Source: Verrucomicrobiia bacterium (GTDB taxonomy: Bacteria; Verrucomicrobiota; Verrucomicrobiia; Limisphaerales; CAIMTB01). From it: 64,000 bases of DNA. The notes beneath the pieces were generated by a model. That model saw only the letters and a list, made by a program, of their open reading frames with translations. It had not been told where the DNA came from and did no database searches. Location: the NCBI GenBank assembly GCA_019634625.1, contig JAHCBA010000008.1, positions 124,001-188,000 of the forward strand, read 5' to 3'. The position numbers were made by a program, and so were the translations under genes. Shown here in pieces: positions 37,971 to 61,778 of this stretch. How positions within the stretch are numbered: the stretch's first letter is position 1; the number at the start of each line of letters is the position of its first letter.

Positions 37971-38467
37971 GTCAGATCCCGGTTCCCCCTCGACCGCCGG
38001 TTGGCCGGGGCCCTATGATCGCACCGGTCGGTGACAGACCTCAATCACGGCCGCGATGACCACGACGCACCACGAGTGAACCGGGGAACCCATGGCGACC
38101 TGACTGGGCCCTGAAGGTTTTTCCGAACGCTTCGCGGTTTTCTCCTTAGCGACAGATAGGACCCAGTGTGCGGCGCGTGCGTCCCGGAAATGGTCCGCAT
38201 CGCAGCCGTGGCTCTGCTTCGACCAGGGGTCGAAGGCTCGTGGCGGGTGTGGCCAATGAACCGACTGCCACGAGTCCGATCCAGGAACCGCTGACCCGCG
38301 GGAACCGCCGGGCACCCTGTCCGGCACCGCGGCAGGCCGGGCGTCTGCCGCAACCCGCCGGCGGTTCATGGAGGGCCACCGCTGACGGTGCCGGGTTGGC
38401 CGGGGTTCCGACCGGTGCCGCACCCCCTGGGAGAGAGCTACCCACGAAGCGTCAACCCTCGAAAACC
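37971..38467. other. Gap upstream of the first large VCBS gene
   Basis: Nothing recognisable is encoded in about 500 bases. The stretch is rich in GC-palindromes (for example CCTGACCCGCGGG near 38290) and has open frames on both strands without familiar motifs. It should hold the promoter of the following giant gene, but no clear -35/-10 pair was found. Confidence 0.4.
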
Positions 38468-41854: not shown

Positions 41855-42144
41855 GACCACCCTTTCCGTCCGGATGGACGGAACTCGGGCTCTGGCCGCT
41901 GAAACCTGTGTTCTCCCGTGTGCCGGCCAGAGCCTGCGAGATCCCTGGTCATGGTGCGCCAGGTTCCAGGGACAACACCGCGTCGCCGGTACGATTTCCG
42001 GAAACAGACCCGGGATGACTCCTTAAGGTGAGGTGGGGTCCGATCTGTCCGCGCTGGTCCCTGCCTCCCGCCACATCACCGGACCCGGTTGCGGATCGCC
42101 GAAAGTCGAACGGATCGGCCCCACTGAAAGCAGGAAATGCAGCC

Positions 42145-45100
42145 ATGAACCCTCCTCATGCAGCCGGGCAACACCCCGCATCCGGCACCCTGACATCGAC
42201 ACGACCGGGCTGGCGGACGTTCGCGACCCATGGTCTCGCGGTCCTCTGCGGACTTGCCCTCCACGTCATCCTGTCGTCCCCCGCCGCCACGAACTTCGTG
42301 AGCGCCCGGGCCCAGGGTCGCGGCGACGGCAGTTCGTGGGCGAACGCCTTCACCAACCTCCATCTGGCCCTGGCGCGCGCGCAGTTCGGGGATTCGATCC
42401 ACGTCGCCGAAGGCACCTACCGTTCCGGCGCACAGGGACAAGACTCCTTCCGCATGGTGGATGGGGTGCAGATTCGTGGCGGGTACAGCGGGTCCACCAA
42501 CAACCCGTTCTTCCGGGACCCTGTCCGGCATCGGAGCATCCTGAGCGGGGATGGTTCCCGGCGTGTGGTGATGAACGAGAATGTGGGGCATCGGTCGGTG
42601 TGGGACGGCTTCACCATCACCGGCGGCAGTGCCGACCGGGGCGGCGGCATGTTCAACCGCAACGCCATGATCGTGGTGCGGGATTGCGTGTTCGAGGGCA
42701 ACAGCGCGGGCGAACGCGGAGGGGGTGTGTTCAACGAGTCGTCGGCTGCGCTCTTCGACCGGTGCGAGTTTCGGAACAACAACGCCTTTTCCGGCGGGGG
42801 CGTCTCCGATGACGCCTCCACGTCGCTGCTGATCGACTGCCTGTTCGAGCGCAATCAAGGCGCCTACGATGCCGGCGCCGTCTTCGAATGGAACTCGCAG
42901 GCCCTGCTTTCACGCTGCGTCTTCCGGAACAACTGGGTCTGGGACACCGCGGGCGCCTTGGGGGCTCAATGCCAGAGCCGGGTGTTCCTGGTCGCCTGCA
43001 CCTTCGAGGACAACATCGCCGAGGCGGGAAGCGCCGGGGCCATCTGGAATCGCATGGAGGGCGACATCACCCTGGACCGCTGCCTCTTTCGCGGCCACCG
43101 CCGCGGCGTCATCGTCAACGGGATGTCATCCCGTCTCACCGCCTTGAACTGTCTCTTCTTCGAGAACACCAGCGACAGGGCCGGCGGTGTCATCGACGCG
43201 ACCGAGCGTTCAACGACCGTCATCGAGAGCTGCACATTCGCTTCGAACACGGCTCCGAATGGACGGGCCATCGCCGCCGGATCCTGGGGAACCGAACCCG
43301 CCTTCATTGAAATCATCAACTCGATCCTGTGGAACGGCGGCAACGAAGTCTGGAGCCAGAACAATTCCACCATCCGAATTCGGTTCAGCACCGTGACGGG
43401 TGGCTATCCCGGGATCTCCAACAGCGCCGAGGATCCCCGCTTCGTCGGGAGCGGCGATTACCGGCTGCAAGCCGGGTCGCCCTGCATTGACCGGGGCGAC
43501 AGCCTGGCTTCGGGCTTTCGCAGGGATCTCGACCACCGCGAGCGTCCCGCGGACGGCGATGGCGACGGCGTTGCCGCATGGGATCAGGGTGCCTTCGAGC
43601 GGGGCGGCGTTCTACCCCGCGGGCCCTTCATGACCTTCGAACCCGCCGACGTGGAGGCGATCGAGGGAACCACGCTCCGGTTGGTCGGCGCGACCGCCGG
43701 GACGCCTTACTGCTCCTACCAATGGCGCCAATGGCAAACCAACAGCTCGCGATGGGTGGATCTGCCCGGGGCGACGGAACCCCGACTCATCCTGACCAAC
43801 CTTCAGGCCGTTCACGCGGGCCGGTATCGCGTGGTGGCTTGGGATACCACGGGCAGCGTCACCAGCGCCGTGGCGACGGTGACGGTCCGTCCTGTGCCCG
43901 GGTTCTGGGTGCCGGCCCCCTCCATGGCGTCTCCCAGGTTTCGCCATACCGCCACCGTGCTGGCCGACGGACGTGTCCTGGTGGCGGGGGGTGACACAGG
44001 GAACGGTCGGCCTCTCGCATCCGCGGAGATCTTCGACCCGGGTACCGATCAATGGACGACCCTCCGTTCCATGAACGAACCCCGTCTCCACCACGAAGCG
44101 ATCCTCCTGCCCTCCGGCAGGGTCCTGGTGGCCGGAGGCACGACCGAATTCGGCCAAACGACCGCCTCGGCCGAGCTTTATGATCCCTCGGCCGGGGGGT
44201 GGACCCGAGTCTCTCCCATGACCACCTCCCGGTCCTCGTTCACCGTGGTTCTCCTCCACGGCTCGAGACATCCTGGCAAGGTGCTGGCCATCGGCGGCAA
44301 CAGCTACCCGAACGGAGACCGAGGCGCCGGCAGCGTGGACGCCCTCGATCGCACCGAAGTGTACGATCCCGTGGCGGATCGATGGTCCCCCACCGCCAAC
44401 CTGATCACCGGAAGGACCCTCTCATCCCCTGCGGCCGTGCCATTCGCCGATGGCTCCGTCCTCGTGGTCGGAAACGGATCGTGCTGCCCGCTTCGGTGGA
44501 CCGCCGCACCCGAACTTGCCCATCCCGACTTGACCCGCTGGGAATCCCTTGACCTCAAGGCCACCCGGGCCACCCAGAAAACCGTTCTCCTGTCGTCCGG
44601 TGAGGTTCTTGTGGCGGGGGGACTGTCTGGCATTCACGACCGCTCGATCGTCACGGCCGATGCCGAAATCTACAACCCGGCAACGCGCACCTGGCGGGCC
44701 ACTGGGACCATGTTCACCGGCCGGCGTGATTTCACCCTGACCCGGCTCCCCGATGGCGAAGTGCTGGCGGCAGGCGGTTCGAGCGGATGGTGGGAGAGAT
44801 GTCGCAACCTCTCCAACGCCGAACTCTACAACCCGGTCACGGGACTGTGGACGCCCATCGCTCCCCTCCAGGTGGCCCGCGCCCTCCACACCGCAAGCCG
44901 CCTGCCCGACGGCCGGGTTCTCATTGTGGGTGGGCAGTCGCGCGACCTCTATTGTTCCGGACCTGTCCTCGCCTCCGTCGAGATGTACGTCCCCACCGCC
45001 CTTCCCCAACCGCCCAGCCTCGTCCTCGAAGCCCGCACAGTGGGTCAATGGCCGCCCCTCCTGAAAATCCCCGCCTGGCGGCTTGCCGTCGACCAGGGCC

Positions 45101-48100
45101 GCGTCTTTTCCCTGCGGCTCCAGGGAACCTTCTCCTGCCTCGGCCTCGATGCCGATGACACTCCGGTCGAGCTCGGACGCCTCGAAATCCCAGCCACCCT
45201 GTGGGACTTCGATGTGGAAGGCGACGTCGCCCTCGTCACGGTCGCCTACCTTGGTCAATTGCTCTTCATCGATGTCCGGGACCCCGCCAACCCCCGGTTG
45301 ATCCTCACCCACACCCCACCCCGCCCCCCGCGCCTCGTCCGTATCCGCGATGGGCACGCCTTCGTCCTGGCCCACGACGGCACCCTCGACATCCTGGATA
45401 TCAGGGATCCGCTGCATCCGGTCCCGGTCGGTTCCCTCGCCACCCTGGCGACGGACGCCTTCGATCTTCACATCACGGAAACCGACGCCTGGTTGGTGTC
45501 CGATTTTGCCTCGCCTCCGGGAAATGTTCGCCGCATTGACATTCGCAATCCCTCCGCACCCATCGACCGCACCCCGGGGGAGCTTCCGAATCTTGGGCGG
45601 ATCGACTCGAGTGTCCGAATCCGCGGCGCCGTGCTGTACGGCACGTCCCTGGTGCAGGGCGGACTCCGGGTCGTGAGCCTGCAGAATCCGGATCAACCGG
45701 TTCTCCTCGGCACCGTTCCCTTCACTCAAGGCGCCCGTCGGTTCGCCCTGGGCCTGTCCATCGCCGCTGTGCCCGCCTCCGGAGGGGTTCAGATGCTCGG
45801 TCTGACCGATCCCCGCCAACCCCGACCCATCGCCACCCTCGTCAGCCGCGGCGGAGCCGAGGATGTCGCGTGGGACGGTGCCCGATTCTGGATCGCCGGT
45901 CCCGCGGGAATCACGGTTGTCGATCCCGCGCACCTTCCGTTGCATCCCGACTTCGTTCCGACCCTGCCGCTCTCCCGCCGGGAATTCTGTGCGGTCGACG
46001 TCCAGGACAACCTGGCCGCCGTCGCCAGCGAAACCCTCGGTGTGACGTTCTTCGATGTTTCCCGACCCAAGCGGCCGCGTCCGCTTTCGTTCATTCCCAT
46101 CCCCGATGCGCGCGATATCCGTTTGGAGGGTCCGTGGGCCCATGTGGCATCGGCCTCCGAGCCGGGTTACACCCTCCTCGATATCCGCAATCCCGCGAAC
46201 CCGCTCCCCGTCGCGCACGCTGTCATCGACCGCGCCCACGGGGTGGACATCCGGGGGACGAACGCCTTTCTGGGCATGCTCCGGGGCGGGTTGCGTGTTC
46301 TCGACCTGACCCGACCCGGGGAGCCGATCCAGGTGGCCTCCATATTCACCCGGTTCCCCACCAACCGGATCCGGATTGCCGGTGAGCACGCGTGGGTTTC
46401 GGGCCACGGCGGTTTCGAGGTGTTCGATATCCGCCAACCCGTCTCGATCGGGTGGCTCGGCCGCTACGAAACCACGAACGCCCTCGCCGAACTCGACATC
46501 GCGGGTTCGCTGGCTTGCCTGGCGACCAGCTCGGGCGCCTTGCTCGGATTCGATATCAGCCGACCGGAAGATCTGCGTCCGGTTTGGTCCACCTCGGCGG
46601 GGTCTCCCGTCATCACCCTGGCAGCTTCGGAACAGATGGCGGTCGCCATCGCTCAAACCAGCCCGAACCGGTTGATCGCGGTCCCCCTCGGCTCCCCGGG
46701 CGCCCCCGAAGTCGCCAGCCTCGAGATCGAACCCGGCGGACTTCGAGCCCTGGCGCTCCAGGGTTCCAGAGCATTCCTCACCGACGGACCGATGGGTCTG
46801 CGCATCCTGGACCTCCGCATCGGGCGTGTCCAAACACTCGAGTTCCCGCTGCCTGCCGAACGGTTCGTGGACGATCTGCCCCTCGAACTCCACCCCATTG
46901 CCAGCAGCGGTCTGCCGGTAACCTTCTCGGTGCTGAGCGGTCCCGCCCGACTGGAGAACCACCTGCTCATCCCCACCGGCCCAGGCCAGGTGATCCTGCG
47001 TGCCGAACAGGCCGGAAACGACCTGTGGCAACCCGTTTCGATCCAGGTCTCGATCCAACTGCTCCGCCGACCCCAAACCATCGCCTGGATCCAGGCGCCG
47101 ACCGGCCCGCTGGAGATGGGTCAGACCTACTTCATCGAGGCGGTTGCCAGCAGCGGCCTGCCTGTCGCTGTCCGCGTCGCCCAGGGCAACGCGGAGCTGT
47201 CCACAAACCAATTCACACCCACCGGGCGGGGAGTTCTCTCCTTGTCCGCGCTTCAGGTCGGCGACGACACATGGGAACCCGCTTCTGCGGAAGTCGCCTT
47301 CCAGGTCTCCGGATGGCCGCAATCCATCGAGTGGATGGATCCCAGCCCCACCCAGCTTCAAGTCGGCGAAACCTACTCCCTCGATGCCGTCGCCAGCAGC
47401 GGACTCCCAGTTACCGTCTCGATCTCAAGTGGCTTCGCCACGCTCGACGCGAACCAGCTTCGCCCGGCATTCCGTGGAACCCTCGTGGTCCGGGCCGCGC
47501 AGGCCGGGGACCTACGCTGGGAACCGATCACCCGGGACCGCGTGTTCGAAGTCGCTGGACCTCCCCAAGCCCTACTCGTCTGGCAGGAGAGCCCGAATCC
47601 CACGCCACCCTACGACACCTGGGCCAATGCCGCCCGCACCCTCCCGAACGCCATTGCCCTGGCCGCCCCCGATGACCTCGTTCTGGTCACCAACGGCGTC
47701 TATCGCACCGGCTCCATGGCAACCCCGGACGGCCCAAGCCGTGTCGCCATTCCCGACGGCGTCATCGTCCGCAGTGTCCATGGCCCGCAGCTCACCGTGA
47801 TCGAGGGCGACCCCTCCGGGATCCGCTGTGTCCACCTCGGCGACGGCGCCGTGCTCTCCGGGTTCACTCTCCGCCAAGGCCGCGCCGAGGCCGGCGGCGC
47901 GGTCTTCTCCACCAGTCCGCGCAGTCTCCTGACCGATTGCATCCTCACCGACAATTCCGCCTCCACGCATGGCGGCGGGGCCGTTGGCGGGACGCTTCAA
48001 ACCTGCACCCTGTCCGCCAACCGCGCCCCGGTCGGTGGGGGCGCTTCCGGCAGCCGCCTCGAAGACTGCGTGTTGCGTGCAAACATCGCGGAGTACGGCG

Positions 48101-50460
48101 GCGGTGGCACCTTTGGCGCCATCCTCTTGCGCTGCTCGATCGAGGGCAACTCAGCCGCCCTGGGCGGTGGAGTCCATCACGGGGAACTCGATCGATGCAC
48201 GCTGATCGGCAACTCGGCGGAGGACGGCGGCGGCGCCTACGATGCCACCCTCCGCAGTTGTGTCGTGATCGGCAATTCCGCCCGCAACCGGGGCGGAGGG
48301 GTGATCAGTTCCAGCCTGTACCAATGCACCCTGACCGAGAATACCGCCTCGGAAGGCGGGGGGGCGGCGGGCCGATGGACCGAGATCCCCGGATTGGGTT
48401 TCCAGGTGCCTCTGCCCTGCCGGTTGTTCAACTGCATCGTGGTGGGCAACACGGCGACGAATCCCACCCACGCCAACCATGCGATGGCGCAGTTCAGTCA
48501 TTCCTGCACCTCCCCGCACCCCGGCGGCGCCGGCAACCTCGACACCGACCCGCGATGGCTCACCGCCAGTCACCTCGCCCCCGATTCACCCTGCCTCGCC
48601 GCGGGCCACCCGGACCATGCCACCGGCCTCGACATCGATGGCGATCCCTGGGAATCGCCTCCGTCCATGGGCGCCGATCAGCCGCGCTCCAGCGGTCCCT
48701 TGAGCGTTCGAATCCTCGCCGCGACCCTGGAAGGGCGAAGCGAGGACACCCTGCGCTTCGTCGCGCTCGGCGCCGGTGCCCTCACCCGCACCGTGTGGGA
48801 CTTCGGCGATGGCATCACCTTCTCCAACGTGCCGGTGGCCACCCATGCCTGGATCCGTGGCGGCATCCATACCGTCACCCTCACCGGCTACAACGACACC
48901 CTGCCGGACGGCGTGCAGGACAGCGTTCAGGTGACGATCACCGAGATGTCGCCCCGCCCCAGCATCAGCGAACCCCTGGTGCCCTCGGCGGCGGCCCCTT
49001 ACGGCCCGGCGTTTGTTCTCACCGTCCATGGCACCGGCTTCACCCCAGGCAGCGTGGTGGCCTGGAATGGCCAACCGCGTCCCACCACCTATCTCAACCC
49101 CTGGCGTCTGACCGCAGTGATCGGCGCCGCCGACATCACCCGGCCCGGCACGGCGCATGTCACCGTCATCAATCCAGGAACTGCCGGCTCTTCCGAACCG
49201 GCGCTCTTTCCGGTGGCCACCCCGTTGCCCTCGGTGATCACCCGGCGATCGGATTATCCGGCGCCACCGGATATCATTGACCTGGTGGCGGCCGACCTGA
49301 ATGGCGACGGCTTTGCGGACCTCATCTCGGCCCATTGGCATACGAGCGAAGTGACGGTGATGATGGGGATGGGCGACGGCACCTTCCGTGCCGGAGATAC
49401 CTACGGGGCGTGCGGCGCCGCCGGATTGACGGTGGGCGATTTCAACGGGGACGGCGTGAAGGATCTGGTCGTGGCCGAACGGGCCTGTGGATCGATCCTG
49501 ATGCTGCTGGGAAACGGCGACGGCACCTTCTACGAAGCCGGGCGCTGGGACGTTCCGACCCTAGGTTATTACGGTCCCTACGCAGTGCTGGCCGACGATT
49601 TCGACCGTGATGGCCTCCTGGATGTGGTGTCCTCGAACGAGGGCGGGGCCAGTCTCACCGTCTTCCTCGGTCAAGGCGACGGCACTTTCCGTTCACAGCA
49701 TGTCATCGCCATCGGCCGTGCCTGCCGGAACCTGGCCGGCGGCGACTTCAACCGGGACCGCTACGCTGACCTGGCGATGGTGACCGAGGACGGCCACCTG
49801 TTCGTGCTCCTGGGCGTCGGCGACGGCACCTTCCTCGATCCGGTCGATTACGATCTGGAAGCGGAATGGAGCCTCGTTGTGGCGTCGGCGGACCTCGATG
49901 GCGACGGTGTGCTCGATCTGGCGGCCACGGCCGGCAACGACGCGCTTGCCCTGCTGTTTGGCAACGGGGATGGCAGCTTCCGGTGGGGTGGCCATTGGCC
50001 GATCGGGGTGATCCCACACTCCATCGCATGCGGCGACCTCAACGCCGATGGACGGCTCGATCTGGTGCTGGGCACCGGCTACCACGACACCCTCGCGCTC
50101 CTGCTCGGCAACGGTGACGGCACCTTTGCGGAGCCAGTGCAGTATCCGGGCCCCCCGAATCCCCGCGGCATTGCAGTCGGCGATTTCAACGCCGACGGCC
50201 GCCTCGATGTCGCCCTGGGCAGTCAGGGGAGTTCCGTCCTGTCGATCTACCTCCAGGCGACCGCCTCGTTCCTTGCGCCCCTCCAATCGGGCGAGTGGAT
50301 GGTGATCCGATGGAATGATGCGGCCAAGGGCCTGCGCCTCCAGCACAGTCCGACCCTCGCGCCCCCGCAATGGACCGATTTCCCGGGGACCGAGGACGTG
50401 ACCGGCATCGCCATCCTGCCCGTCCAGAGCAGCGGCTTCTTCCGTCTGGTGAAGCCCTGA
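42145..50460 (+). CDS. Giant multidomain exported protein (beta-helix, Kelch, LVIVD, Ig, PKD, IPT, FG-GAP)
   Basis: A 2771-residue surface or secreted protein. A signal peptide ends near residue 50. Domains in order: a right-handed beta-helix (about 50-486); an Ig-like domain (496-582); Kelch-type repeats with VLVAGG motifs (591-950); LVIVD-like propeller repeats (976-1569, DVRDPANPRLI, DIRDPLHPVPV); three Ig-like repeats each with ASSGLPV (1572-1809); a second beta-helix (1819-2182); PKD (WDFGDG, about 2210); IPT/TIG (2272-2357); six or seven FG-GAP repeats (2369-2706); and the C-terminal module ending SSGFFRLVKP. An AGGA site precedes the ATG at 42145. Large binding or adhesive function is likely; no enzyme motif is seen. 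Confidence 0.85.
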   Translation: MNPPHAAGQHPASGTLTSTRPGWRTFATHGLAVLCGLALHVILSSPAATNFVSARAQGRGDGSSWANAFTNLHLALARAQFGDSIHVAEGTYRSGAQGQDSFRMVDGVQIRGGYSGSTNNPFFRDPVRHRSILSGDGSRRVVMNENVGHRSVWDGFTITGGSADRGGGMFNRNAMIVVRDCVFEGNSAGERGGGVFNESSAALFDRCEFRNNNAFSGGGVSDDASTSLLIDCLFERNQGAYDAGAVFEWNSQALLSRCVFRNNWVWDTAGALGAQCQSRVFLVACTFEDNIAEAGSAGAIWNRMEGDITLDRCLFRGHRRGVIVNGMSSRLTALNCLFFENTSDRAGGVIDATERSTTVIESCTFASNTAPNGRAIAAGSWGTEPAFIEIINSILWNGGNEVWSQNNSTIRIRFSTVTGGYPGISNSAEDPRFVGSGDYRLQAGSPCIDRGDSLASGFRRDLDHRERPADGDGDGVAAWDQGAFERGGVLPRGPFMTFEPADVEAIEGTTLRLVGATAGTPYCSYQWRQWQTNSSRWVDLPGATEPRLILTNLQAVHAGRYRVVAWDTTGSVTSAVATVTVRPVPGFWVPAPSMASPRFRHTATVLADGRVLVAGGDTGNGRPLASAEIFDPGTDQWTTLRSMNEPRLHHEAILLPSGRVLVAGGTTEFGQTTASAELYDPSAGGWTRVSPMTTSRSSFTVVLLHGSRHPGKVLAIGGNSYPNGDRGAGSVDALDRTEVYDPVADRWSPTANLITGRTLSSPAAVPFADGSVLVVGNGSCCPLRWTAAPELAHPDLTRWESLDLKATRATQKTVLLSSGEVLVAGGLSGIHDRSIVTADAEIYNPATRTWRATGTMFTGRRDFTLTRLPDGEVLAAGGSSGWWERCRNLSNAELYNPVTGLWTPIAPLQVARALHTASRLPDGRVLIVGGQSRDLYCSGPVLASVEMYVPTALPQPPSLVLEARTVGQWPPLLKIPAWRLAVDQGRVFSLRLQGTFSCLGLDADDTPVELGRLEIPATLWDFDVEGDVALVTVAYLGQLLFIDVRDPANPRLILTHTPPRPPRLVRIRDGHAFVLAHDGTLDILDIRDPLHPVPVGSLATLATDAFDLHITETDAWLVSDFASPPGNVRRIDIRNPSAPIDRTPGELPNLGRIDSSVRIRGAVLYGTSLVQGGLRVVSLQNPDQPVLLGTVPFTQGARRFALGLSIAAVPASGGVQMLGLTDPRQPRPIATLVSRGGAEDVAWDGARFWIAGPAGITVVDPAHLPLHPDFVPTLPLSRREFCAVDVQDNLAAVASETLGVTFFDVSRPKRPRPLSFIPIPDARDIRLEGPWAHVASASEPGYTLLDIRNPANPLPVAHAVIDRAHGVDIRGTNAFLGMLRGGLRVLDLTRPGEPIQVASIFTRFPTNRIRIAGEHAWVSGHGGFEVFDIRQPVSIGWLGRYETTNALAELDIAGSLACLATSSGALLGFDISRPEDLRPVWSTSAGSPVITLAASEQMAVAIAQTSPNRLIAVPLGSPGAPEVASLEIEPGGLRALALQGSRAFLTDGPMGLRILDLRIGRVQTLEFPLPAERFVDDLPLELHPIASSGLPVTFSVLSGPARLENHLLIPTGPGQVILRAEQAGNDLWQPVSIQVSIQLLRRPQTIAWIQAPTGPLEMGQTYFIEAVASSGLPVAVRVAQGNAELSTNQFTPTGRGVLSLSALQVGDDTWEPASAEVAFQVSGWPQSIEWMDPSPTQLQVGETYSLDAVASSGLPVTVSISSGFATLDANQLRPAFRGTLVVRAAQAGDLRWEPITRDRVFEVAGPPQALLVWQESPNPTPPYDTWANAARTLPNAIALAAPDDLVLVTNGVYRTGSMATPDGPSRVAIPDGVIVRSVHGPQLTVIEGDPSGIRCVHLGDGAVLSGFTLRQGRAEAGGAVFSTSPRSLLTDCILTDNSASTHGGGAVGGTLQTCTLSANRAPVGGGASGSRLEDCVLRANIAEYGGGGTFGAILLRCSIEGNSAALGGGVHHGELDRCTLIGNSAEDGGGAYDATLRSCVVIGNSARNRGGGVISSSLYQCTLTENTASEGGGAAGRWTEIPGLGFQVPLPCRLFNCIVVGNTATNPTHANHAMAQFSHSCTSPHPGGAGNLDTDPRWLTASHLAPDSPCLAAGHPDHATGLDIDGDPWESPPSMGADQPRSSGPLSVRILAATLEGRSEDTLRFVALGAGALTRTVWDFGDGITFSNVPVATHAWIRGGIHTVTLTGYNDTLPDGVQDSVQVTITEMSPRPSISEPLVPSAAAPYGPAFVLTVHGTGFTPGSVVAWNGQPRPTTYLNPWRLTAVIGAADITRPGTAHVTVINPGTAGSSEPALFPVATPLPSVITRRSDYPAPPDIIDLVAADLNGDGFADLISAHWHTSEVTVMMGMGDGTFRAGDTYGACGAAGLTVGDFNGDGVKDLVVAERACGSILMLLGNGDGTFYEAGRWDVPTLGYYGPYAVLADDFDRDGLLDVVSSNEGGASLTVFLGQGDGTFRSQHVIAIGRACRNLAGGDFNRDRYADLAMVTEDGHLFVLLGVGDGTFLDPVDYDLEAEWSLVVASADLDGDGVLDLAATAGNDALALLFGNGDGSFRWGGHWPIGVIPHSIACGDLNADGRLDLVLGTGYHDTLALLLGNGDGTFAEPVQYPGPPNPRGIAVGDFNADGRLDVALGSQGSSVLSIYLQATASFLAPLQSGEWMVIRWNDAAKGLRLQHSPTLAPPQWTDFPGTEDVTGIAILPVQSSGFFRLVKP

Positions 50461-50686
50461 TGGGGGGGCGAATGGGGAATGGCGAATGGGGGCCGTGGCG
50501 CTTGGGAGCGCCGGATTCAATCCCATGGCTGCCCACGTCATCACCCCGTGCGAACCGCCTCGCAGTTACACTCGTCAGTCCCGGTGACGGGACTTCCAAC
50601 GCGCAAAGGAAAGCACGCTGTGCGACTCCCCCCATCAACCAGACGCAGGCCGTTCAAACCGGCAGACCATTCACATGGTACACCCT

Positions 50687-53158: not shown

Positions 53159-53394
53159 GTGCATCCCGGAGTTGTGGGTGAGGGGAGGCAGCGAGTCCAC
53201 ATTCCAAAACACCACCCCCTTGCGGCCTCGTGGAACTCGACCCTCCGATTTCACCACCCCGTTTCACCCTTCGGAGGGACGAGCTCCGCGAATCCTCATC
53301 CCAACGCGCCACACGGTTGCGGCCTCGTGGAACCCGGCCGTCCGAGGCGAGGCTTCGCAAAGTCTGCACCTCTCCCCGCAACTCCGGGATGCAC
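53159..53394 (+). repeat. Long palindromic repeat, copy E with internal duplication
   Basis: The outer arms are intact (GTGCATCCCGGAGTTGTGGG to CAACTCCGGGATGCAC), but the copy is 236 bases. A central segment of roughly 80 bases is duplicated in diverged form: the stretches ACATTCCAAAACACCACCCC / TTGCGGCCTCGTGGAACTCG and TCATCCCAACGCGCCACACG / TTGCGGCCTCGTGGAACCCG are clearly related. It lies 116 bases upstream of the sigma factor ATG. Confidence 0.9.
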
Positions 53395-53510: not shown

Positions 53511-54254
53511 ATGAAATCCTCGGAATCCGCCAGCAATCCTGCCGAGTTCACGTTTGGAACCACCCACTGGAGCGTGGTCCTGGCCGCCGGGCAGGGCGAT
53601 TCACCATTGGCGGAGGTGGCACTGGATCGACTCTGCCGCGCCTACTGGTATCCGGTATTTGGGTTCATCCGGCATCATGGCCATCCTGCGGAGGAAGCGC
53701 GCGACCTGACGCAGGAGTTCTTTGCCCGCCTTCTGATCCGGGGCGGCATCGGCAAGGCCGATCCATCGCGCGGGCGATTCCGGGCCTTCCTGCTGACTTC
53801 GATCCGGAACTTCCTCTCCGACGCCTGGGATTGGCAGCGGGCGAAGAAGCGCGGCGGGGGGCTCCGAACCATTTCCCTGGAGGAGTTGGGATGCTGGGAG
53901 GATTGGATGGTGGACTCGGACGCCACGGCATCCCCGGAGCAGGTTTTCGATCAGGCCTGGGCGGGTTCCGTCCTGCGGAACACCTGCAGCCACCTGCGGG
54001 ATGAGTATGCCGCAGCGGGCCGGACGGATCGGTTCGAGGCACTGGAGCCGTATCTTCCCGGTGGGAATGCGGAGGAAGCAGGCAGGGGGTTGGGGCAACG
54101 CCTGGGTTTGACCGAGGCGGCCCTGCGCTCCGAGGTGCACCGGCTGCGCCGACGCTTCCGCGCCCTGCTGCGGCGCGAGGTGGCGCATACCGTGGCCACG
54201 CCCGAGGAGATCGACGGGGAGATCCGCTATCTCATGCAGGTGGTTGCCGGGTAA
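53511..54254 (+). CDS. ECF-type RNA polymerase sigma factor (PVC type)
   Basis: A 247-residue sigma-70-family factor. FGTTHWSVV (about residues 15-23) and ALDRLCRAYWYPVFGFIRHH (about 37-56) open region 2, which continues through EARDLTQEFFARLL and RFRAFLLTSIRNFLSDAWD (about 88-106). Region 4 is near LTEAALRSEVHRLRRRFRALL (about 200-220). The form with FGTTHWSVV is widespread in Planctomycetes and Verrucomicrobia, usually next to a Ser/Thr kinase, as here: the kinase gene starts 16 bases downstream. It probably directs RNA polymerase to a regulon controlled by that kinase. Confidence 0.93.
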   Translation: MKSSESASNPAEFTFGTTHWSVVLAAGQGDSPLAEVALDRLCRAYWYPVFGFIRHHGHPAEEARDLTQEFFARLLIRGGIGKADPSRGRFRAFLLTSIRNFLSDAWDWQRAKKRGGGLRTISLEELGCWEDWMVDSDATASPEQVFDQAWAGSVLRNTCSHLRDEYAAAGRTDRFEALEPYLPGGNAEEAGRGLGQRLGLTEAALRSEVHRLRRRFRALLRREVAHTVATPEEIDGEIRYLMQVVAG

Positions 54255-54270
54255 CCCGGGAGTTGCGTCG

Positions 54271-57200
54271 ATGAAGGCTCTTCACTGTCCGAGGTGTGGC
54301 GGGCGGTTGTCCGCCGGGCGTCCGGGATCCGGGTGTCTCCATTGCCTCCTGCAAATGGGGTTGAGCGACGACCCGGAATCGAGGGAGGGCGCCGACTCCG
54401 AGGGACCGGAGGATGCAGGGGTGGGGGGTGATGGCATGCCGGCGGCGGATGAGGTGCGGGAGGTGCGCCGGTTGGGCGACTACGAGTTGGTGGAGGAGAT
54501 TGGCCGCGGCGCGATGGGCGTGGTGTACCGGGCGCGGCAGGTGCGGCTGGACCGTTGGGTGGCGGTGAAGCTCCTGCTGGTGGGGCGGTTTGCCAGTCCG
54601 GAATCGGCACGGCGCTTCGAACGCGAGGCGCAGGCCTCGGGGCGGCTGCAACACCCGAACATCGTGCCCACCCACGACTACGGGGTGTGCGAAGGACAGC
54701 CCTACATCTCGATGGACTGGATCCAGGGGGTGAATTTATCGGAACTGATCCACAACCGCCCGCTGGCCCCGCGACGGGCGGCGCGACAGGTGATGGCCCT
54801 GGCCCGTGCCGTGGGCTACGCGCATGGGCAGGGGATTCTCCATCGGGATCTCAAACCCTCCAACGTGGTGATCGATGCGCAGGATCAACCGCACCTGACG
54901 GACTTTGGACTGGCCAAGCGGCTCGGGGAGGCGCTGGACCTGACCCTGACCGGCCAGGCGTTGGGATCGCCGAACTACATGGCGCCGGAGCAGGCGGCGG
55001 GCCGGCGTGAGGCGATCGGTCCGGCCATCGACATCTATGCGCTGGGGGCGATTCTCTATCATGGCCTCACAGGGCGTCCGCCGTTCTTTGCGGACAGTGT
55101 GACGTCCACGCTCCGGCAGGTTCAGGAGATGGAGCCGGTGCCGCCGCGGTTGCTCAATCCCGCCGTGCCGCGCGATCTCGAGACGGTGTGCCTGAAGTGC
55201 CTCGAGAAGCTCCCAGGACGACGGTTTGCCTCGGCGGAGGCGTTGGCGGACGAATTGGAGCGATTCCTGGAGGGGCGGCCCATCCGGTCCCGGCCGGTGG
55301 GTCTGGCGGCGCGGGGAGTGCGGTGGTGCCGTCGTCATCCGGGGCTGGCGGGTCTTGCGGGGGCATTGGGAATGCTGCTGCTCGTGGTAGGGGTGCTGGG
55401 GGCGTTCGCCATCGGACAGGCCTCCCGGGCCCGCGACGCGGAACACGCGGAGCGCCGGCAACGGCAGGTCGCGGAAAGCCTGGCGGAGGAGCAACGGGAG
55501 CGACTGCTGAGGTCGCTCCTGCAGACCGGCCGCCGTGCGCTCGACGACGGCGATCCAGCCCAGGCCCTGCTCTGGCAGGTGGAGGCGCTGGAACTCTCGA
55601 TGCACCAACCCGCCGAGGAGGAGGTGCACCGCCTCCGCATCGCCTCCACCCTCAGCCGTTGTCCGCATCCTGAACTCATGCTCCCCCACGCCGCGCCGTG
55701 TCTGCTGGTGGTGTTCACCCGCGACGGCCGACGGATCCTGACCCTGTCCGGGGAAGATCCACCGCGGGACGGGGCGGGTCTGAATCCGGAAGGAAGGCTG
55801 CACCTGTGGGACGTGGCCACCGGTCGACCGGTGTTTGCGCCGTTGCCCCATACCGCGCTCGGCTTCGGCAGCGGCGGCTACAAGGGCATCGGCATTCACT
55901 ACCACCCGTTCGATCCAACGGATCGACGCTTCTTCACCCTCGTGAGCCGCGGTGATTCGGTCTCGAACGTGCTCACCCGGGTCCAGGTCCACGACGCCGA
56001 CTCGGGCGACGTGGTCGGAACGCCCTTCGAGGTCGAGGGATTTGTTCCGTTCGCGGAGTTCAGTCCGGACGGAGCCCGGCTGGCCGTGGCCAGCGCGCAA
56101 CGGTTGCCCGGGATGAGTCAGCGGGGGGACGCCCAGGTCTGGGATGTGGCCACCGGGACTCGCGTAGGGCCGGTCATGCCGCATCCGGCGGGGGTCTCGG
56201 CGGTGCGGTTCGATCCGGAGGGCCGACGTCTGCTGAGCGGTTGCCGGGACGGGGCGGCACGCCTCTGGGAACTGCCTTCGGGCACCCTTCTCGTTCCCCC
56301 GATGCCCCACGGCGAGGGGGTGTTGCATGCCACCTTCGACCACGCCGGACGGCGGGTGGCCACGGTCGGCGTCGGTTCCTGTTATGCGCAGATCTGGGAT
56401 GCCGCCACGGGCGCGCCGCTCGTTCCCCCGCTTGGAAACATCCCTGTCCACTACCATGCCTACGCGTCCCGCTTCAGCGACGACGACCGCTGGCTCCTGA
56501 CCTACGGAAACCCGGGCTCGGTTCGGGTGTGGAACGTCGCAACCGGGGAGGCGGCGTTTCCCTGGGATCCCGAGTGGGGCGCGGCCGACGCCCGATTCCT
56601 CCCCGGCGGCCAGCGGTTCATCACCGTCGGGGGCGACGGCAAGATCCGGTTTTGGGGGGTGGAGGACGGCCGGCCCAAGGGGACCCCAATCCTGCAGAAG
56701 GAAGGCTTCGTTTCCCTCGCGCTTTCCCCTGACGGCCGGCGGGTGGCGGTCGCCTGCGGCAGCGGTCTGGGCCTGGTTTGGAGGCTGGATCCACCCGGGC
56801 AGCCGTCCGTGACGCTGCCTCATGGCGCGCCCATCCTGCATCACGCCCTGGACGCCTCCGGGCGCCTGGCCGTCACCGCGGCCAGCGACGGCACCACGCG
56901 CGTCTGGGATCTGGCCACGGCGCGTCCCACGGGAACTCCATTGGTGCATCCGAAGGGGGTCACGTCCATGGAACTCTCCCCCGACGGACGATCCATCGCC
57001 ACGGGCGGCATGGACATGACCGCGCGGCTGTGGGATGCCGGGACCGGTGCCCTGTTGGTTCCACCGATGGTTCACTCGAACCCGGTGTGGACCGTCGGGT
57101 TCGATCCCGAGGGACGTCGCCTGGTAACCGCCAGCGGCGTCGCGCCCTGGGTCCCGGTTTCCTTCTACATCAACCAGCCCGTCGTCCAGGGGCCCCGTGA

Positions 57201-58089
57201 GGGCGAAGCGTGCGTCTGGGAAGTCGCCTCCGGCCGTCCGCTGACGCCTCCCCTCCGCCATCCCGCCATGGTGATCGCCGCCTGTTTCAGTCCCGACGGG
57301 CGTCGCGTCCTCACCGCCGGGGCCGACCGGACCCTACGGCTCTGGGACGCCGCCACCGGGGACATGGTTCTGCCGCCCATCCCACTTTCGGGCATCCCGC
57401 TTCGAGCTGGCTTCAGCCCCGACGGCAGCCGCCTGGTTTCGGGTGCGTTGATCTCCGACCGCCAGCAGAGCGCCGTCCAGCTCTGGGATGCCGTAACAGG
57501 GTTGTCCGCCACCCCGGACCTGCAGGTTCCAAACAGTTGCATCAGTGTTCGGTTCAGTCGGCAGGGCGATCGATTGGTGATGGCCCAGTATGGGAGCCTG
57601 TTTCTCGGCCTCTGCGACGTCCGGACCGGTTCGAGGGCTGTTCCCGATCTCGACGTGCCATCGCCCGTGAGCGATGCCGACTTCTCCGGCCACGGCCGTT
57701 GGCTGGCCACAGGAAGCCTGGACGGCGCGGTGAGACTCTGGGACACCCGGCGCGGCGATCTGCTGGCCGAATTTCGGGGCCACAGCCATCCCGTTCACCG
57801 CGTGAGTTTCACCCCGGACGACCGCGGCATTCTGTCCAGCAGCCTCGATGGCACCGCCCGACTCTGGCCCATTCCGAGCGACCCGCGGCCTCTGGACGAT
57901 CTGCGCCGCCTCGCGCACGTCCTTTCCGGGCGCAGGATCAATGCCTCGGGCCGGGTCGCCGCCGCCAAGGCGGGCGAGATCAGCGACGCGTGGAATCTCC
58001 TCCGCGACCGCTACCCGGACCCGCTGATGCCGAACAACGCCCAACAGTCAGCCAGAATGTGCCCGGAAAGGGCACCCTCCCCGAGGTAG
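54271..58089 (+). CDS. Transmembrane Ser/Thr protein kinase with C-terminal WD40 repeats
   Basis: A 1272-residue receptor-like kinase. A small zinc-ribbon begins the chain (C6-P-R-C9 and C22-L-H-C25). The kinase domain starts YELVEEIGRGAMGVVYRARQ (about residue 71), has VAVKLL, the catalytic HRDLKPSN (about 191), DFGLAKR (about 211) and APEQ (about 238). A membrane helix is at about 358-383, a coiled-coil-like stretch at 385-420, and about a dozen WD40 repeats fill residues 467-1204 (ARLWELPSG, RLWDAATGD and similar). It is co-transcribed with the sigma factor gene. Kinase half codons favour G-ending, WD40 half C-ending. Confidence 0.93.
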   Translation: MKALHCPRCGGRLSAGRPGSGCLHCLLQMGLSDDPESREGADSEGPEDAGVGGDGMPAADEVREVRRLGDYELVEEIGRGAMGVVYRARQVRLDRWVAVKLLLVGRFASPESARRFEREAQASGRLQHPNIVPTHDYGVCEGQPYISMDWIQGVNLSELIHNRPLAPRRAARQVMALARAVGYAHGQGILHRDLKPSNVVIDAQDQPHLTDFGLAKRLGEALDLTLTGQALGSPNYMAPEQAAGRREAIGPAIDIYALGAILYHGLTGRPPFFADSVTSTLRQVQEMEPVPPRLLNPAVPRDLETVCLKCLEKLPGRRFASAEALADELERFLEGRPIRSRPVGLAARGVRWCRRHPGLAGLAGALGMLLLVVGVLGAFAIGQASRARDAEHAERRQRQVAESLAEEQRERLLRSLLQTGRRALDDGDPAQALLWQVEALELSMHQPAEEEVHRLRIASTLSRCPHPELMLPHAAPCLLVVFTRDGRRILTLSGEDPPRDGAGLNPEGRLHLWDVATGRPVFAPLPHTALGFGSGGYKGIGIHYHPFDPTDRRFFTLVSRGDSVSNVLTRVQVHDADSGDVVGTPFEVEGFVPFAEFSPDGARLAVASAQRLPGMSQRGDAQVWDVATGTRVGPVMPHPAGVSAVRFDPEGRRLLSGCRDGAARLWELPSGTLLVPPMPHGEGVLHATFDHAGRRVATVGVGSCYAQIWDAATGAPLVPPLGNIPVHYHAYASRFSDDDRWLLTYGNPGSVRVWNVATGEAAFPWDPEWGAADARFLPGGQRFITVGGDGKIRFWGVEDGRPKGTPILQKEGFVSLALSPDGRRVAVACGSGLGLVWRLDPPGQPSVTLPHGAPILHHALDASGRLAVTAASDGTTRVWDLATARPTGTPLVHPKGVTSMELSPDGRSIATGGMDMTARLWDAGTGALLVPPMVHSNPVWTVGFDPEGRRLVTASGVAPWVPVSFYINQPVVQGPREGEACVWEVASGRPLTPPLRHPAMVIAACFSPDGRRVLTAGADRTLRLWDAATGDMVLPPIPLSGIPLRAGFSPDGSRLVSGALISDRQQSAVQLWDAVTGLSATPDLQVPNSCISVRFSRQGDRLVMAQYGSLFLGLCDVRTGSRAVPDLDVPSPVSDADFSGHGRWLATGSLDGAVRLWDTRRGDLLAEFRGHSHPVHRVSFTPDDRGILSSSLDGTARLWPIPSDPRPLDDLRRLAHVLSGRRINASGRVAAAKAGEISDAWNLLRDRYPDPLMPNNAQQSARMCPERAPSPR

Positions 58090-58193: not shown

Positions 58194-58454
58194 GGACCAC
58201 AGTGCTCCCCACCTGGGGATCACGAAACGTACCGAATTCGTCTCCGGCGCTCATGGATGGGATCCGGCTTCGGGAATGGGTCCGAACATTTTCGGAACAA
58301 TTTCCGAGCGCGTCCTTATCTCCAGGTAGGAACCAGTATGTCGCGCAGGCGTCCCAAGGAAGGGGGATGTGTCCGGCATTCCGGATCCTGGACGACGCAC
58401 GTCGCCCCTGCCGCGACGGGGCCGAAAAGCGAGACCTCGAAAACAGTCATCCGC

Positions 58455-61400
58455 ATGAAAACCCAAGAGCTACCACAAAGACCCGCCCGCTTTGCCATCG
58501 GGTTGTTGCTGCTGATCCCGCTCCCCCTTCTGGCCGCCACGCAACTCTTCGTGGCCATCGACCCTCCGGGGTTCGACAAGCTGCCCCGGCAGTCCAGCCA
58601 GGTCGCCTGGGGCGATTATGACAACGACGGCCTTCCCGATGCGTATGTGGTGCAGTTTCCTACCGGGCAGGATTCTAGAAGGACCACCAACGTGCTGTTC
58701 CGGAACGTGGGCAATGGCAGCTTTGTTCAACTGTCGGACTCGGCGATCGGAGGTCCCGCCGCGCACCGGCACCAGTCGTGGCGGGTGGAGTGGGCCGATG
58801 TGAACAACGACGGACGGCTGGACCTGGTGCTCCATGAGCATTCGATTAACCGTCGTAGTCGAACCGCCCACCTGTATCTGAATCAGCCGGATGGACGGTT
58901 CACCATCGCCGACGCCGGCGAGTTCAGTTGGCCGACGAGGGGGAGCATTGGCAACAGCATCAGCCTGGCGGATTACGATCAGGATGGGTGGTTGGACATC
59001 CTCCTTTGTGGAGGCGCCGACCTGGGCCTCAACGCCCTCGCTCATTCCAGAGGGGACGGTTCCTTCACCCGTGTAACTGGCAATCCCATCACCTCTGAGG
59101 TGCCGCAGGGCGGTATGAACACCGCGCTGTGGACGGACATCGATGGGGACGGCGACCCGGACCTGGTCGTCGCTCACTTCTGGTCGCCGCCGCCCAACTT
59201 CCTCTATCGCAACGATGGCGCCGGACAGTTCACTCGGCTTGCCGGGGACCTCATCGGTCCCGTCCTCGGAATCTCCAATGTGGAAGCTGCCGACTTCGAT
59301 CGCGACGGCCACCTGGACCTCGTCACCGCGGGCGAGGCTCTCCAGATTCTGCTCAATCGCGGCGATGGCGAGTTCAGGCTCAGTCAGCGTTTCGACTTCC
59401 TCTGGTCAGACGTTTATGTGGGTGACTACGACAACGACGGCGACACCGACATCCTGAGTGCCGGCGTGGGCATCGAACGTCTGGAGGTTCGTCTGTTTCG
59501 CAACGATGGCACCGGCCGGTTCACCGAGGTCAGCGAAGCCTTCACCGGGCCGACCGAGGCCAGCGGAAACTGGGTGGACTTCGACAACGACGGGTTTCTC
59601 GATCTTTTCCTGGCCTACCCGGGATCACCGCAGTTGCGCCATGTGTTGTACAAGAACCAGGGGAACGGAAATCACTGGATCAAGTTCCGCCTCGTCGGCT
59701 CGGCGTCCAACCGGTCGGCGTTCGGCGCCAGGGTGCGCGTGAAAGCCACCCTGGGCGGTGAGACGGTCTGGCAGCTTCTGCAACAGAGTCACTCCCTCGC
59801 CTCGGGTGACGCGCTCCGGCTGCATTTCGGCCTTGCCGACGCCACCGTGGCCGAGGAGGTGCGGATTGAATGGCCATCGGGCAATGTGCAGGTGCTGGAA
59901 AACCTTCCCGCCGACCGCATCCACACGGTGACAGAACCGGCGCCGTTTCGGCCTGAGCGCCCGGTCGTCACGGTCAATGGCACCGTGACCATCACCAACC
60001 TGGCTTCGGCCCTTTCACGACAATGGCACTTCAATGGCCAACCTCTCGAGGGCCAGACCAACTGGCTGCTCACCCTGACCCAGGTGCAGCCTGCGCAGAC
60101 CGGGCGCTACACGCTCGTCCGCGAGACCAGCACCGGCACCGTGACCCAGCACGTGTTCCTGAGGGTCAACCCCCAGTTCACCAAGATTCTTCAGGGCGAG
60201 ATCGTCACCGAGGAGTTCGGGAGCCAGACCGCCAACTGGTTCGACATCGACAACGACGGGTGGCTCGATGTGCACATTGGCAATTCGTCGGTGGCACCGC
60301 GCAACTCCCTATTCCGCAACAATCGCGACGGCACGTTCACCGCGCTGACCGACAGCCCGCTCGTCACCCATGGCCCGGGAATCTTCTCGGCGACCCCGGC
60401 GGACTACGACAATGACGGGTGGGTGGATATGTTCCTGCCGCACTGGGACCACTTCGACCTCTTTCGCAACACGGGTGAGGGAATCTTCTCTCCGATGTCC
60501 CTGCCACCGCTGACTGGGCCCACCAGCTCGGCCGTGAACGCAAGCTGGTCGGACTACAACCGCGACGGTCACCTGGACCTGTTCGTCACGCGGGGTTGGT
60601 ACACCGACGACATCGACTACAACGACCGGCTTTTCCGCAGTAACCGCGACGGAACGTTCACCCAGGTCGAGGCTGCGGAGGTTGGTGAGTTGGTGAATGA
60701 CCGCCTGCGAACGACCTACAGCGCTTGGTTCGATTATGACAATGACGGTGACCAGGACATCCTGGTCATCCATTATGGCGGCGTCCCCCCGCGGCTTCAC
60801 CGCAACAATGGCGACGGCACGTTCACCCGGGTCCAGGCAGGCTCACTGGGGGCCGCGTTGAATGACGAGGCTCCGGCTATCGGCGATTACGACAACGACG
60901 GCTGGCCGGATGTCTTTCTCTCACGGTGGCTTTCCGGTGTCGTCGGACTTCACCGGAACCTGGGCCACGGCATGTTCGCGAACGTCACTCACGCCGCCGG
61001 GATGTCGTTTCAGGATCGCACCGATAATCCGCCCGCCACCTGGGTGGACTACGACAACGACGGGCATCTTGACCTTTTACTGCCTTACGCTGGGGACGCC
61101 CGGCTGTACCGCAACCGCGGCGACGGCACGTTTCAGTCAGTCAACATCGGAAACATGCAGACGGACGCCACGCACTGGGGTTTGGCGGCGTGGGCGGACT
61201 ATGACAACAACGGGTTTCCGGACCTGTTGCTGGTGCATGGGGACAGCTTTCCAGTCCGCAACCACCTGTACCGCAACGAAGGCAATGCCAATCACTGGCT
61301 CAAAGTGAAGGCTGTGGGCGTCACCTCGAATCGCGACGCCATCGGTGCCAAGATCCGGCTCACCGCGACGATTGGAGGACGTACCTTCACGCAACTGCGC

Positions 61401-61778
61401 GAGATCTCCGGGAACGCCCCGGGCTGCGGCGCGCCGCTGCCGTACGGGCATTTTGGCCTCGGGGATGCCACCCGCGCCACCAAGGTTCGCATCGAATGGC
61501 CGTCGGGTGTCGTGCAGGAACTCGCCGACGTCGGCGTGGACCAGATGCTCACGGTGACCGAGGCCGAGGTGATTCAGGTGACCTGCATCCAGACGGTGGA
61601 GGGTTCACGCATCCTCTGCCGCGGGCTTCCAGCCACGGCCTATACGCTCCAGGAATCCTCGGACCTCAGCACGTGGAGGGACATGCCGCAAGTGGCCACC
61701 ACGGACGACACGGGCACAGCGACCGTGGTGGTTCCCAACGCGGGGAGCGTCCGGTTCTACCGGGCGATCAAACGCTGA
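58455..61778 (+). CDS. Exported FG-GAP/VCBS and ASPIC/UnbV repeat protein (paralogue)
   Basis: A 1107-residue secreted protein with the same architecture as the one at 38468. A signal peptide covers about residues 12-28 (FAIGLLLLIPLPLLAA). The first FG-GAP propeller (51-395) and an ASPIC/UnbV domain (404-492, NGNHWIKFRLVGSASNRSAF, RIEWPSGN) are followed by an Ig-like domain (499-571), a second propeller (596-936) and a second ASPIC/UnbV domain (946-1036). It ends with SSDLSTWRDM ... RFYRAIKR. Calcium loops of the form DYDNDG are frequent. A long frame continues upstream through the kinase gene but the ATG at 58455 starts the signal peptide. Confidence 0.88.
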   Translation: MKTQELPQRPARFAIGLLLLIPLPLLAATQLFVAIDPPGFDKLPRQSSQVAWGDYDNDGLPDAYVVQFPTGQDSRRTTNVLFRNVGNGSFVQLSDSAIGGPAAHRHQSWRVEWADVNNDGRLDLVLHEHSINRRSRTAHLYLNQPDGRFTIADAGEFSWPTRGSIGNSISLADYDQDGWLDILLCGGADLGLNALAHSRGDGSFTRVTGNPITSEVPQGGMNTALWTDIDGDGDPDLVVAHFWSPPPNFLYRNDGAGQFTRLAGDLIGPVLGISNVEAADFDRDGHLDLVTAGEALQILLNRGDGEFRLSQRFDFLWSDVYVGDYDNDGDTDILSAGVGIERLEVRLFRNDGTGRFTEVSEAFTGPTEASGNWVDFDNDGFLDLFLAYPGSPQLRHVLYKNQGNGNHWIKFRLVGSASNRSAFGARVRVKATLGGETVWQLLQQSHSLASGDALRLHFGLADATVAEEVRIEWPSGNVQVLENLPADRIHTVTEPAPFRPERPVVTVNGTVTITNLASALSRQWHFNGQPLEGQTNWLLTLTQVQPAQTGRYTLVRETSTGTVTQHVFLRVNPQFTKILQGEIVTEEFGSQTANWFDIDNDGWLDVHIGNSSVAPRNSLFRNNRDGTFTALTDSPLVTHGPGIFSATPADYDNDGWVDMFLPHWDHFDLFRNTGEGIFSPMSLPPLTGPTSSAVNASWSDYNRDGHLDLFVTRGWYTDDIDYNDRLFRSNRDGTFTQVEAAEVGELVNDRLRTTYSAWFDYDNDGDQDILVIHYGGVPPRLHRNNGDGTFTRVQAGSLGAALNDEAPAIGDYDNDGWPDVFLSRWLSGVVGLHRNLGHGMFANVTHAAGMSFQDRTDNPPATWVDYDNDGHLDLLLPYAGDARLYRNRGDGTFQSVNIGNMQTDATHWGLAAWADYDNNGFPDLLLVHGDSFPVRNHLYRNEGNANHWLKVKAVGVTSNRDAIGAKIRLTATIGGRTFTQLREISGNAPGCGAPLPYGHFGLGDATRATKVRIEWPSGVVQELADVGVDQMLTVTEAEVIQVTCIQTVEGSRILCRGLPATAYTLQESSDLSTWRDMPQVATTDDTGTATVVVPNAGSVRFYRAIKR

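Follow-up and report, generated by a model that had tools for sequence, protein, structure and literature searches.

A 64,000-nucleotide stretch of a Verrucomicrobiia genome (the window; the genome is 6.74 Mb in 88 contigs and 97% complete) carries an extracytoplasmic function (ECF) sigma factor gene followed by the gene of a membrane Ser/Thr receptor kinase with a large WD40 part. Our analysis suggests, with moderate probability, that the two form a local module in which the receptor kinase activates the sigma factor, which would transcribe three neighbouring exported FG-GAP giants. The pair recurs within and between genomes, its kinases are associated with a zinc ribbon, and an ECF-type promoter whose last base covaries with the recognition helix of the sigma factor lies behind many of the kinase genes; the order sigma-kinase-FG-GAP is kept in a second genome. 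In the proposed mechanism, the kinase would sit in the inner membrane with the zinc ribbon and the kinase domain in the cytoplasm and the propeller outside, a topology that we infer. A signal would lead the kinase to switch the neighbouring sigma factor on, presumably by phosphorylating or binding it directly, and the zinc ribbon would act as an adaptor between kinases of this type and sigma factors of this type. Once active, the sigma factor, rather than a paralogue, would bring RNA polymerase to the AAC-N15-CCTTA promoters of the three giants (genes starting at 38468, 42145 and 58455).

The sigma factor gene (53511..54254, + strand) encodes 247 amino acids (aa) from an ATG start, with the segment FGTTHWSVV at residues 15-23 and the sigma-4 recognition helix ALRSEVHRLRRRF. 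It matched the sigma-70 region 2 family Sigma70_r2 of Pfam (PF04542) with 31.8 bits against a cut-off of 24, and TIGR02937 over residues 37-217 with 37.2 bits, under the cut-off of 42.9 for that model; the Pfam scan gave no region 4 match. The predicted structure had a pLDDT of 70.9, and its top Foldseek matches were ECF sigma factors, the best with an E-value of only 0.022 and nothing at 0.001 or better. FGTTHWSVV had 0 matches in the literature searched, the coverage of which was partial.

The kinase gene (54271..58089, +) encodes 1272 aa. The automatic open reading frame (ORF) begins at TTG 54244; we preferred the ATG at 54271 (MKALHCPRCGG...), which leaves a gap of exactly 16 bases behind the sigma factor gene and runs to the stop at 58089. 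An N-terminal CxxC-CxxC zinc ribbon (C6, C9, C22 and C25, CPRC-x12-CLHC; 54286..54345, +) precedes the Pkinase domain (residues 71-327; 54481..55251, +), in which the catalytic motifs VAVK, HRDLK, DFG and APE are all intact, as in Hanks-type Ser/Thr kinases. A single hydrophobic, predicted transmembrane segment (residues 359-382; 55345..55416, +) separates the kinase domain from the WD40 part. The Pfam scores were 153 bits for Pkinase (cut-off 31.7) and 199 bits for WD40. A model of residues 1-350 reached a pLDDT of 86 and a pTM of 0.80, with the kinase part scored well; the ribbon region showed two single bridge residues and one helix, and the linker at residues 36-60 was of low confidence. 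The ORFs, the Pfam matches and the exact gap thus bear out the first-pass annotation, which had described an ECF factor with FGTTHWSVV and a WD40 membrane Ser/Thr kinase 16 bases apart. It had also noted that no anti-sigma factor is present, and none of the anti-sigma families appeared among the matches listed for the proteins scanned, which were the pair and four of its neighbours, six in all (for the kinase, 25 of 37 Pfam matches were listed; the rest of the block was unscanned).

The window pair is one of about 24 such pairs in its genome, in which 25 matches to the window sigma were found at an E-value of 1e-5 or better and 24 passed the counting score. To these we added sigma factors from four genomes of the same genus, from other families of the order (returned loci only) and from 78 loci of a contig search, which gave 187 distinct family members after removal of duplicates; four of 13 matches in genome G004 were omitted. 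The contig search took the best 80 of 565 matches with the family alignment as query, a single-protein query having confirmed no relative, and its loci were mostly from Verrucomicrobiota, with some from Planctomycetota and, by title, one acidobacterial and one lentisphaeral metagenome-assembled genome. The family is marked by an N-terminal FxxTxW(S/T) and a C-terminal TVxxPxEV. A same-strand kinase gene was found within 1.5 kb of 156 of the 187 sigma genes (142 downstream, 14 upstream); the 31 without one are an upper bound, as little flanking sequence was available for many members. Upstream sequence of 2.9 kb or more and downstream sequence of 1.5 kb or more were available for 70 members, 63 of which had a kinase and seven none. 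One 56-kb same-genus contig (G002:C164; loci L075, L076 and L158) carries four family sigmas with a kinase gene behind each.

The paired kinases are associated with the zinc ribbon. Four of the 156 had N-termini cut at the end of the stretch, and one of these (L013) was recovered with a full ribbon, leaving 153 readable N-termini; CxxC-x(6-40)-CxxC stood before the kinase domain in 149 of them. The four without it, each beside a family sigma, were L158, L199, L209 and L212, three of which have a common WQPPxLE segment ahead of the kinase domain; the L022 kinase has no ribbon either. When 44 kinases of the window's own genome were placed on one tree, 22 had both ribbon and family sigma, 20 had neither and two were ribbon-like but lay further than 1.5 kb from any family sigma; the Fisher p was 3e-10. 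The last two were L011, with a sigma 4.8 kb off, and L061, with an odd CGGC-CGKC. Among 20 kinase loci of this genome that lie apart from the sigma family, one had a loosely similar motif. The genome has 48 Pkinase matches, of which a fragment on contig C11 was left out and same-frame or too-short matches were given no separate row. Four of the 20 with neither (L069, L070, L073 and L074) adjoin other ECF-type sigmas with weak family scores. The ribbon kinases were scattered over several parts of the tree, which was taken without support values (7 parsimony changes), and therefore the ribbon appears to track the sigma partner, not kinase ancestry alone. The literature searched, which was of partial coverage with the main ECF classification paper outside it, gave no report of a link between zinc ribbon and kinase-sigma pairing.

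The arrangement resembles RpoE/RseA and the ZAS anti-sigma factors in having a cytoplasmic zinc-binding module, one transmembrane segment and a sensor part outside. The zinc motif of ZAS proteins is Hx3Cx2C, whereas the ribbon of the window kinase is CPRC-x12-CLHC, of the CxxC-CxxC type, and is joined to a kinase domain. A further likeness is to the WD40/TPR receptor kinases of Planctomycetota, which have a cytoplasmic kinase, one transmembrane segment and WD40 repeats that are mostly predicted to be periplasmic; in the available part of that account, however, 'zinc' occurs 0 times in the main text and a kinase-sigma gene pair is not mentioned (PMC11032199).

We propose that the kinase controls the sigma factor because the two are paired, because no anti-sigma factor was found and because of the zinc-ribbon link. 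Pairing of this kind is known. According to the available parts of PMC8999054, control by a Ser/Thr kinase has been proposed for ECF61, ECF62, ECF217, ECF59 and ECF283, the first four with planctomycete examples; the kinase-associated groups other than ECF43 have DAED or a similar acidic motif, and their mechanism awaits study. The window sigma fits this description, with a kinase neighbour, an acidic motif and no anti-sigma factor among the six proteins scanned; like the sigma factors of the five groups, it stands beside a Ser/Thr kinase and not an anti-sigma factor, the match being to the description and not to group models (PMC8999054). ECF59 is described as having its acidic motif replaced, with Ser as phosphosite, and differs in this from the window family, which keeps the motif (PMC8103513, in the part available). 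To speak of a new system, which the first-pass annotation held to be plausible, is therefore too strong, since kinase-paired ECF sigmas are an established class (PMC8999054; PMC8103513, as far as their available parts go). The locus adds a zinc ribbon, a promoter that follows a helix code and a local regulon to a pairing of known kind, and these are not found in the available accounts of the five groups (PMC8999054; PMC8103513).

The conserved residues of the sigma factor bear on how such control might work. In ECF43 the acidic DAED motif is lost and a phospho-threonine takes its place, and activation by phosphorylation has been shown there, as reported in the available parts of PMC8999054 and PMC13147305. 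The EcfP/PknT pair of Vibrio and the EcfK/PknS pair of Xanthomonas, both ECF43, resemble the window pair in joining a sigma factor with a cognate, adjacent Ser/Thr kinase, and in Xanthomonas the target, the type VI secretion system (T6SS), is encoded in the same region as the pair (PMC8999054, available part). The window kinase might in the same manner phosphorylate a region 2.2 residue of its sigma and so supply the charge needed for RNA polymerase binding. The kinase neighbour, the lack of an anti-sigma factor among the six proteins scanned and the EcfP and EcfK precedents (PMC13147305; PMC8999054, both in part) would agree with this, as would Thr67 of DLTQ, which is present in 151 of the 187 members. 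DAED is absent in ECF43, whereas the window family keeps an acidic motif (EARD in the window): position 65 is acidic in 187/187 members and position 62 in 156/187, so there is no charge to restore, and 23 of the 31 members without a detected kinase have Thr67 as well. Because position 65 is always acidic, the ECF43 hallmark is missing from the family, and we regard an ECF43-like mechanism as improbable.

Four positions were Ser or Thr in more than 85% of the family sigmas (17, 18, 21 and 227). Thr18 (codon 53562..53564, +), Thr in 186 of 187 members, is a candidate phosphosite or a structural residue; position 227 was Thr in 183 members and Ser in one. No conserved Ser/Thr separated the paired from the unpaired sigmas among the 187. 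Phosphorylation may control the sigma factor: the kinase pairing and the lack of a detected anti-sigma factor favour this, but the retained acidic motif speaks against it. A different mechanism can be imagined in which the kinase is the on-board anti-sigma factor: its zinc ribbon would keep the sigma factor membrane-bound until a signal led to phosphorylation either of the ribbon or of the conserved FxTTHWS segment near the sigma N-terminus, whereupon the sigma would be released to local surface-protein promoters. The sigma would otherwise be active, because its acidic RNA-polymerase motif is kept. We consider this unlikely, though if it were true, anti-sigma factor and kinase would be one protein in this clade, copied about two dozen times in the window's genome as private sensor-to-surface circuits with a promoter code of their own.

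Several of these findings weigh against kinase control as the basis of the module. No kinase was in reach of 31 of the 187 sigmas, four paired kinases had no ribbon, and Thr18 and Thr227 were present in every one of the 31 members for which no kinase was detected; their conservation alone is therefore no phosphosite signature. The sigma and kinase genes might be mere chromosomal neighbours, the kinase acting elsewhere and the sigma being controlled through its own expression; the unpaired members (an upper bound) and the failure of any conserved Ser/Thr to set paired members apart would both suit this. Pairing in 156 of 187 cases and in two gene orders argues against it, as does the spread of ribbon kinases over the kinase tree, with the ribbon tracking the sigma rather than kinase ancestry alone, and we give the idea of mere neighbours little credence.

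The regions behind the kinase genes were searched for promoters up to 500 bases past the kinase stop in 111 pairs, within 294 regions in all for the profile. The top strand-biased hexamer after the kinase was TGTAAC, found in 15 regions forward and one reverse; this enrichment alone would fail correction for 4096 words, and the hexamer was used as a seed. The resulting two-box family profile, built from nine seeds, was TTCCTGTAA(C/T)-N14/15-CCTTAG. In the 294 regions it had 35 forward matches, of which 25 were behind a kinase gene, and five reverse matches. When the profile was trained on other families, forward sites were found in 20 of the 62 post-kinase regions of the genus and reverse sites in two, with 1.2 expected; among the 86 pre-sigma regions of the genus, one had a forward site and three a reverse site. 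When it was trained on the genus, the other families gave eight of 49 post-kinase regions forward and none reverse, and 10 of 97 pre-sigma regions forward and two reverse. These held-out tests were seeded with a word from the pooled data, which is a mild leak. On this sequence evidence, about one in three same-genus pairs has an ECF-type promoter behind the kinase gene.

In 13 of the 23 loci that had both a site of at least 15 and an ORF, a start codon lay 36-41 nucleotides from the beginning of the motif, compared to three to five of 67 site-less controls and none of 23 when the anchor was jittered. This distance fits leaderless mRNAs. Export-like N-termini, by a crude score, were found at 17 of the 23 loci with a site and at 23-26 of the 67 without, and at 13 of 23 with the jittered anchor. 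Autoregulation of the sigma factor through this promoter type was rejected: no such promoter precedes the window sigma (best score 5.1 within 350 bases), and one was found in only one of 86 pre-sigma regions of the genus. At L075 (13814-15130), at L175 (2686-4191) and also at L008 of the window's own genome, an esterase gene (PAF-acetylhydrolase/PETase-like) lies behind the kinase gene with a family-type promoter between them.

The promoter is linked to the paired sigma factor by its recognition helix. Sigmas with K or R in the sigma-4 helix (AVKVAVHRLR) go with boxes that end in AAC, and those with A or G (AVAVAVHRLR) with boxes that end in AAT. The counts of helix residue against last box base were 21/0/0/7 at post-kinase sites (p 8e-7) and 10/0/0/4 when one member was kept per 55% identity cluster (p 0.001); with pre-sigma sites included they were 29, 2, 0 and 7. 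At the next helix position, V as opposed to any other residue goes with T as opposed to any other base in the box (22, 1, 1 and 4, p 0.001). Across these loci the last promoter base covaries with the DNA-reading helix of the sigma factor, which indicates that the sigma reads the promoter. The window sigma and its orthologue in the relative G002 have R and S at these two helix positions, and both loci have a CGGAAC box; a GGAAC-type -35 box with R-S in the recognition helix is also a feature of E. coli sigma-E. TGTAAT promoters stand after kinases paired with A/G-helix sigmas at L193, L194, L208, L217, L222, L126 and L133, a possible private promoter code.

Three sites of this type were identified in the window, all on the + strand and none of them among the 35 training matches of the profile. 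The site TTTTCGGAAC-N15-CCTTATC (58289..58320) lies between the kinase gene and an exported FG-GAP/UnbV gene (58455..61778, +) and ranked first in the post-kinase region with 11.2 (11.19), the best reverse score there being 8.2. The site TTCCGGAAAC-N15-CCTTAAG (41996..42027) precedes a giant exported gene with Kelch, beta-helix and FG-GAP parts (42145..50460, +; the frame is open from GTG 42028, the likely start being ATG 42145) and scores highest with the family profile when both strands of the window are counted, its 18.3 being reached in two of 100 simulated windows. The third, TTTTCCGAAC-N15-CCTTAGC (38119..38150), has a weaker score of 8.0 and precedes another exported FG-GAP/UnbV gene (38468..41854, +; likely start ATG 38468). 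AAC-N15-CCTTA is common to all three, and AACN14TCCTTA occurred three times in the window against 0.05 expected. The 30-base word TTYYSNRAAC-N14-TCCTTA had three exact matches in the genome, all in this block, and was absent from the approximately two dozen other UnbV genes; a fourth match (contig C58) appeared at one mismatch, and reversed controls gave 0 at one mismatch or fewer. In the four same-genus genomes, there were 11 one-mismatch matches, one of them at the syntenic place in G002, compared to nine for the control, which is the background level elsewhere.

The G002 locus has the same gene order, with a sigma factor of 61% identity, a kinase of 52% and an FG-GAP/UnbV protein of 45%; this last protein resembles the 38468 protein (48% over 1056 aa) to about the same degree as it does the 58455 protein. 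A site of the same type ranked first at the corresponding place with 11.3, the second site there scoring 9.2.

The case for three promoters has weak points, as does the promoter type itself. Profiles trained on the reverse strand still matched four of 62 (0 reverse) and three of 49 (one reverse) forward post-kinase regions, held-out training gave a weak second box with the spacing settling at 13, 86 of the 111 post-kinase regions had no site above the threshold, and the pre-sigma sites L038 and L155 break the helix rule. In the window, the motif words were composed after the sites were seen. Six sites scored 11.2 or more in the whole window against 5.2 expected, with 58289 (11.19) just below. 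The 38119 site scores just 8.0, and its leader resembles that of 58289, the two genes being related FG-GAP genes; the two sites are therefore not fully independent. The noncoding match to G002 is modest as well, at 25 of 34 bases (60 shuffles gave 22 at most, and 109 other post-kinase regions 23 at most). The post-hoc words, the lack of a clear general excess and the leaders, which look related by descent, weaken the three-site case more than they weaken 58289.

The sigma may drive the adjacent 58455 gene alone, with the 38119 and 41996 words read by paralogues or left as remnants of inherited leaders. Only 58289 is backed by its position immediately behind the kinase gene and by a syntenic site in G002, the leaders around 38119 and 58289 are alike and belong to related genes, and the genome holds about 24 sigma paralogues that could read the other words. 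On the other hand, the exact word occurs nowhere else in the genome, the 41996 leader is dissimilar and its site scores 18.3, and spacing and CCTTA are identical at all three sites; we hold this narrower regulon to be somewhat unlikely. In the account that we prefer, the targets would be mainly the FG-GAP gene directly behind the pair and, probably, two more genes upstream. A sequence on contig C7 that nearly matched the first promoter word was dropped as chance; it falls within an open frame of some 530 codons, phosphoesterase-like by eye.

If the module with three targets is correct, some Verrucomicrobiota would have at least two dozen insulated receptor-to-surface-protein circuits per genome that can be recognised by sequence analysis alone. 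Giant exported FG-GAP/UnbV proteins, whose role is unknown, would then be tied to specific receptors. The family would also offer handles on mechanism in its conserved ribbon adaptor, its promoter type with a helix code and its short regulons with visible targets.

The pair had been described as surrounded by giant exported genes, which agrees with what we found: the five neighbours all have export-like N-termini, as judged by eye. Besides the three predicted targets, these are an Ig-domain gene (50675-52975) and a BspA-type LRR gene (61831-63759). Neither had a family-profile site within 350 bases, the best scores being 4.7 and 2.2, respectively. The suggestion that the sigma regulon takes in the neighbouring genes and perhaps a repeat thus holds for three of the five exported genes, which share an ECF-type promoter word upstream, and fails for the Ig gene, the LRR gene and the repeat; the lack of any common promoter word, which the first-pass annotation had named as a refutation, was not observed.

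The repeat copy ahead of the pair (approximately 53159..53394, strand not assigned, with 20-bp inverted ends) is present as described, and a special tie to the pair was dismissed since it is an interspersed repeat that matched the genome at 59 places or more; on contig C31 some of these form tandem arrays spaced by 97 bases. Because it is spread genome-wide, it was rejected as a regulon member and judged to lie outside the system. No UnbV_ASPIC domain was matched in any of 14 control genomes, whereas the window's genome has 32 matches to this domain (contigs C39, C45, C10, C20 and others), which form a large FG-GAP/UnbV-type gene family. By position, the biggest direct-repeat families of the block sit within the FG-GAP and LRR genes.

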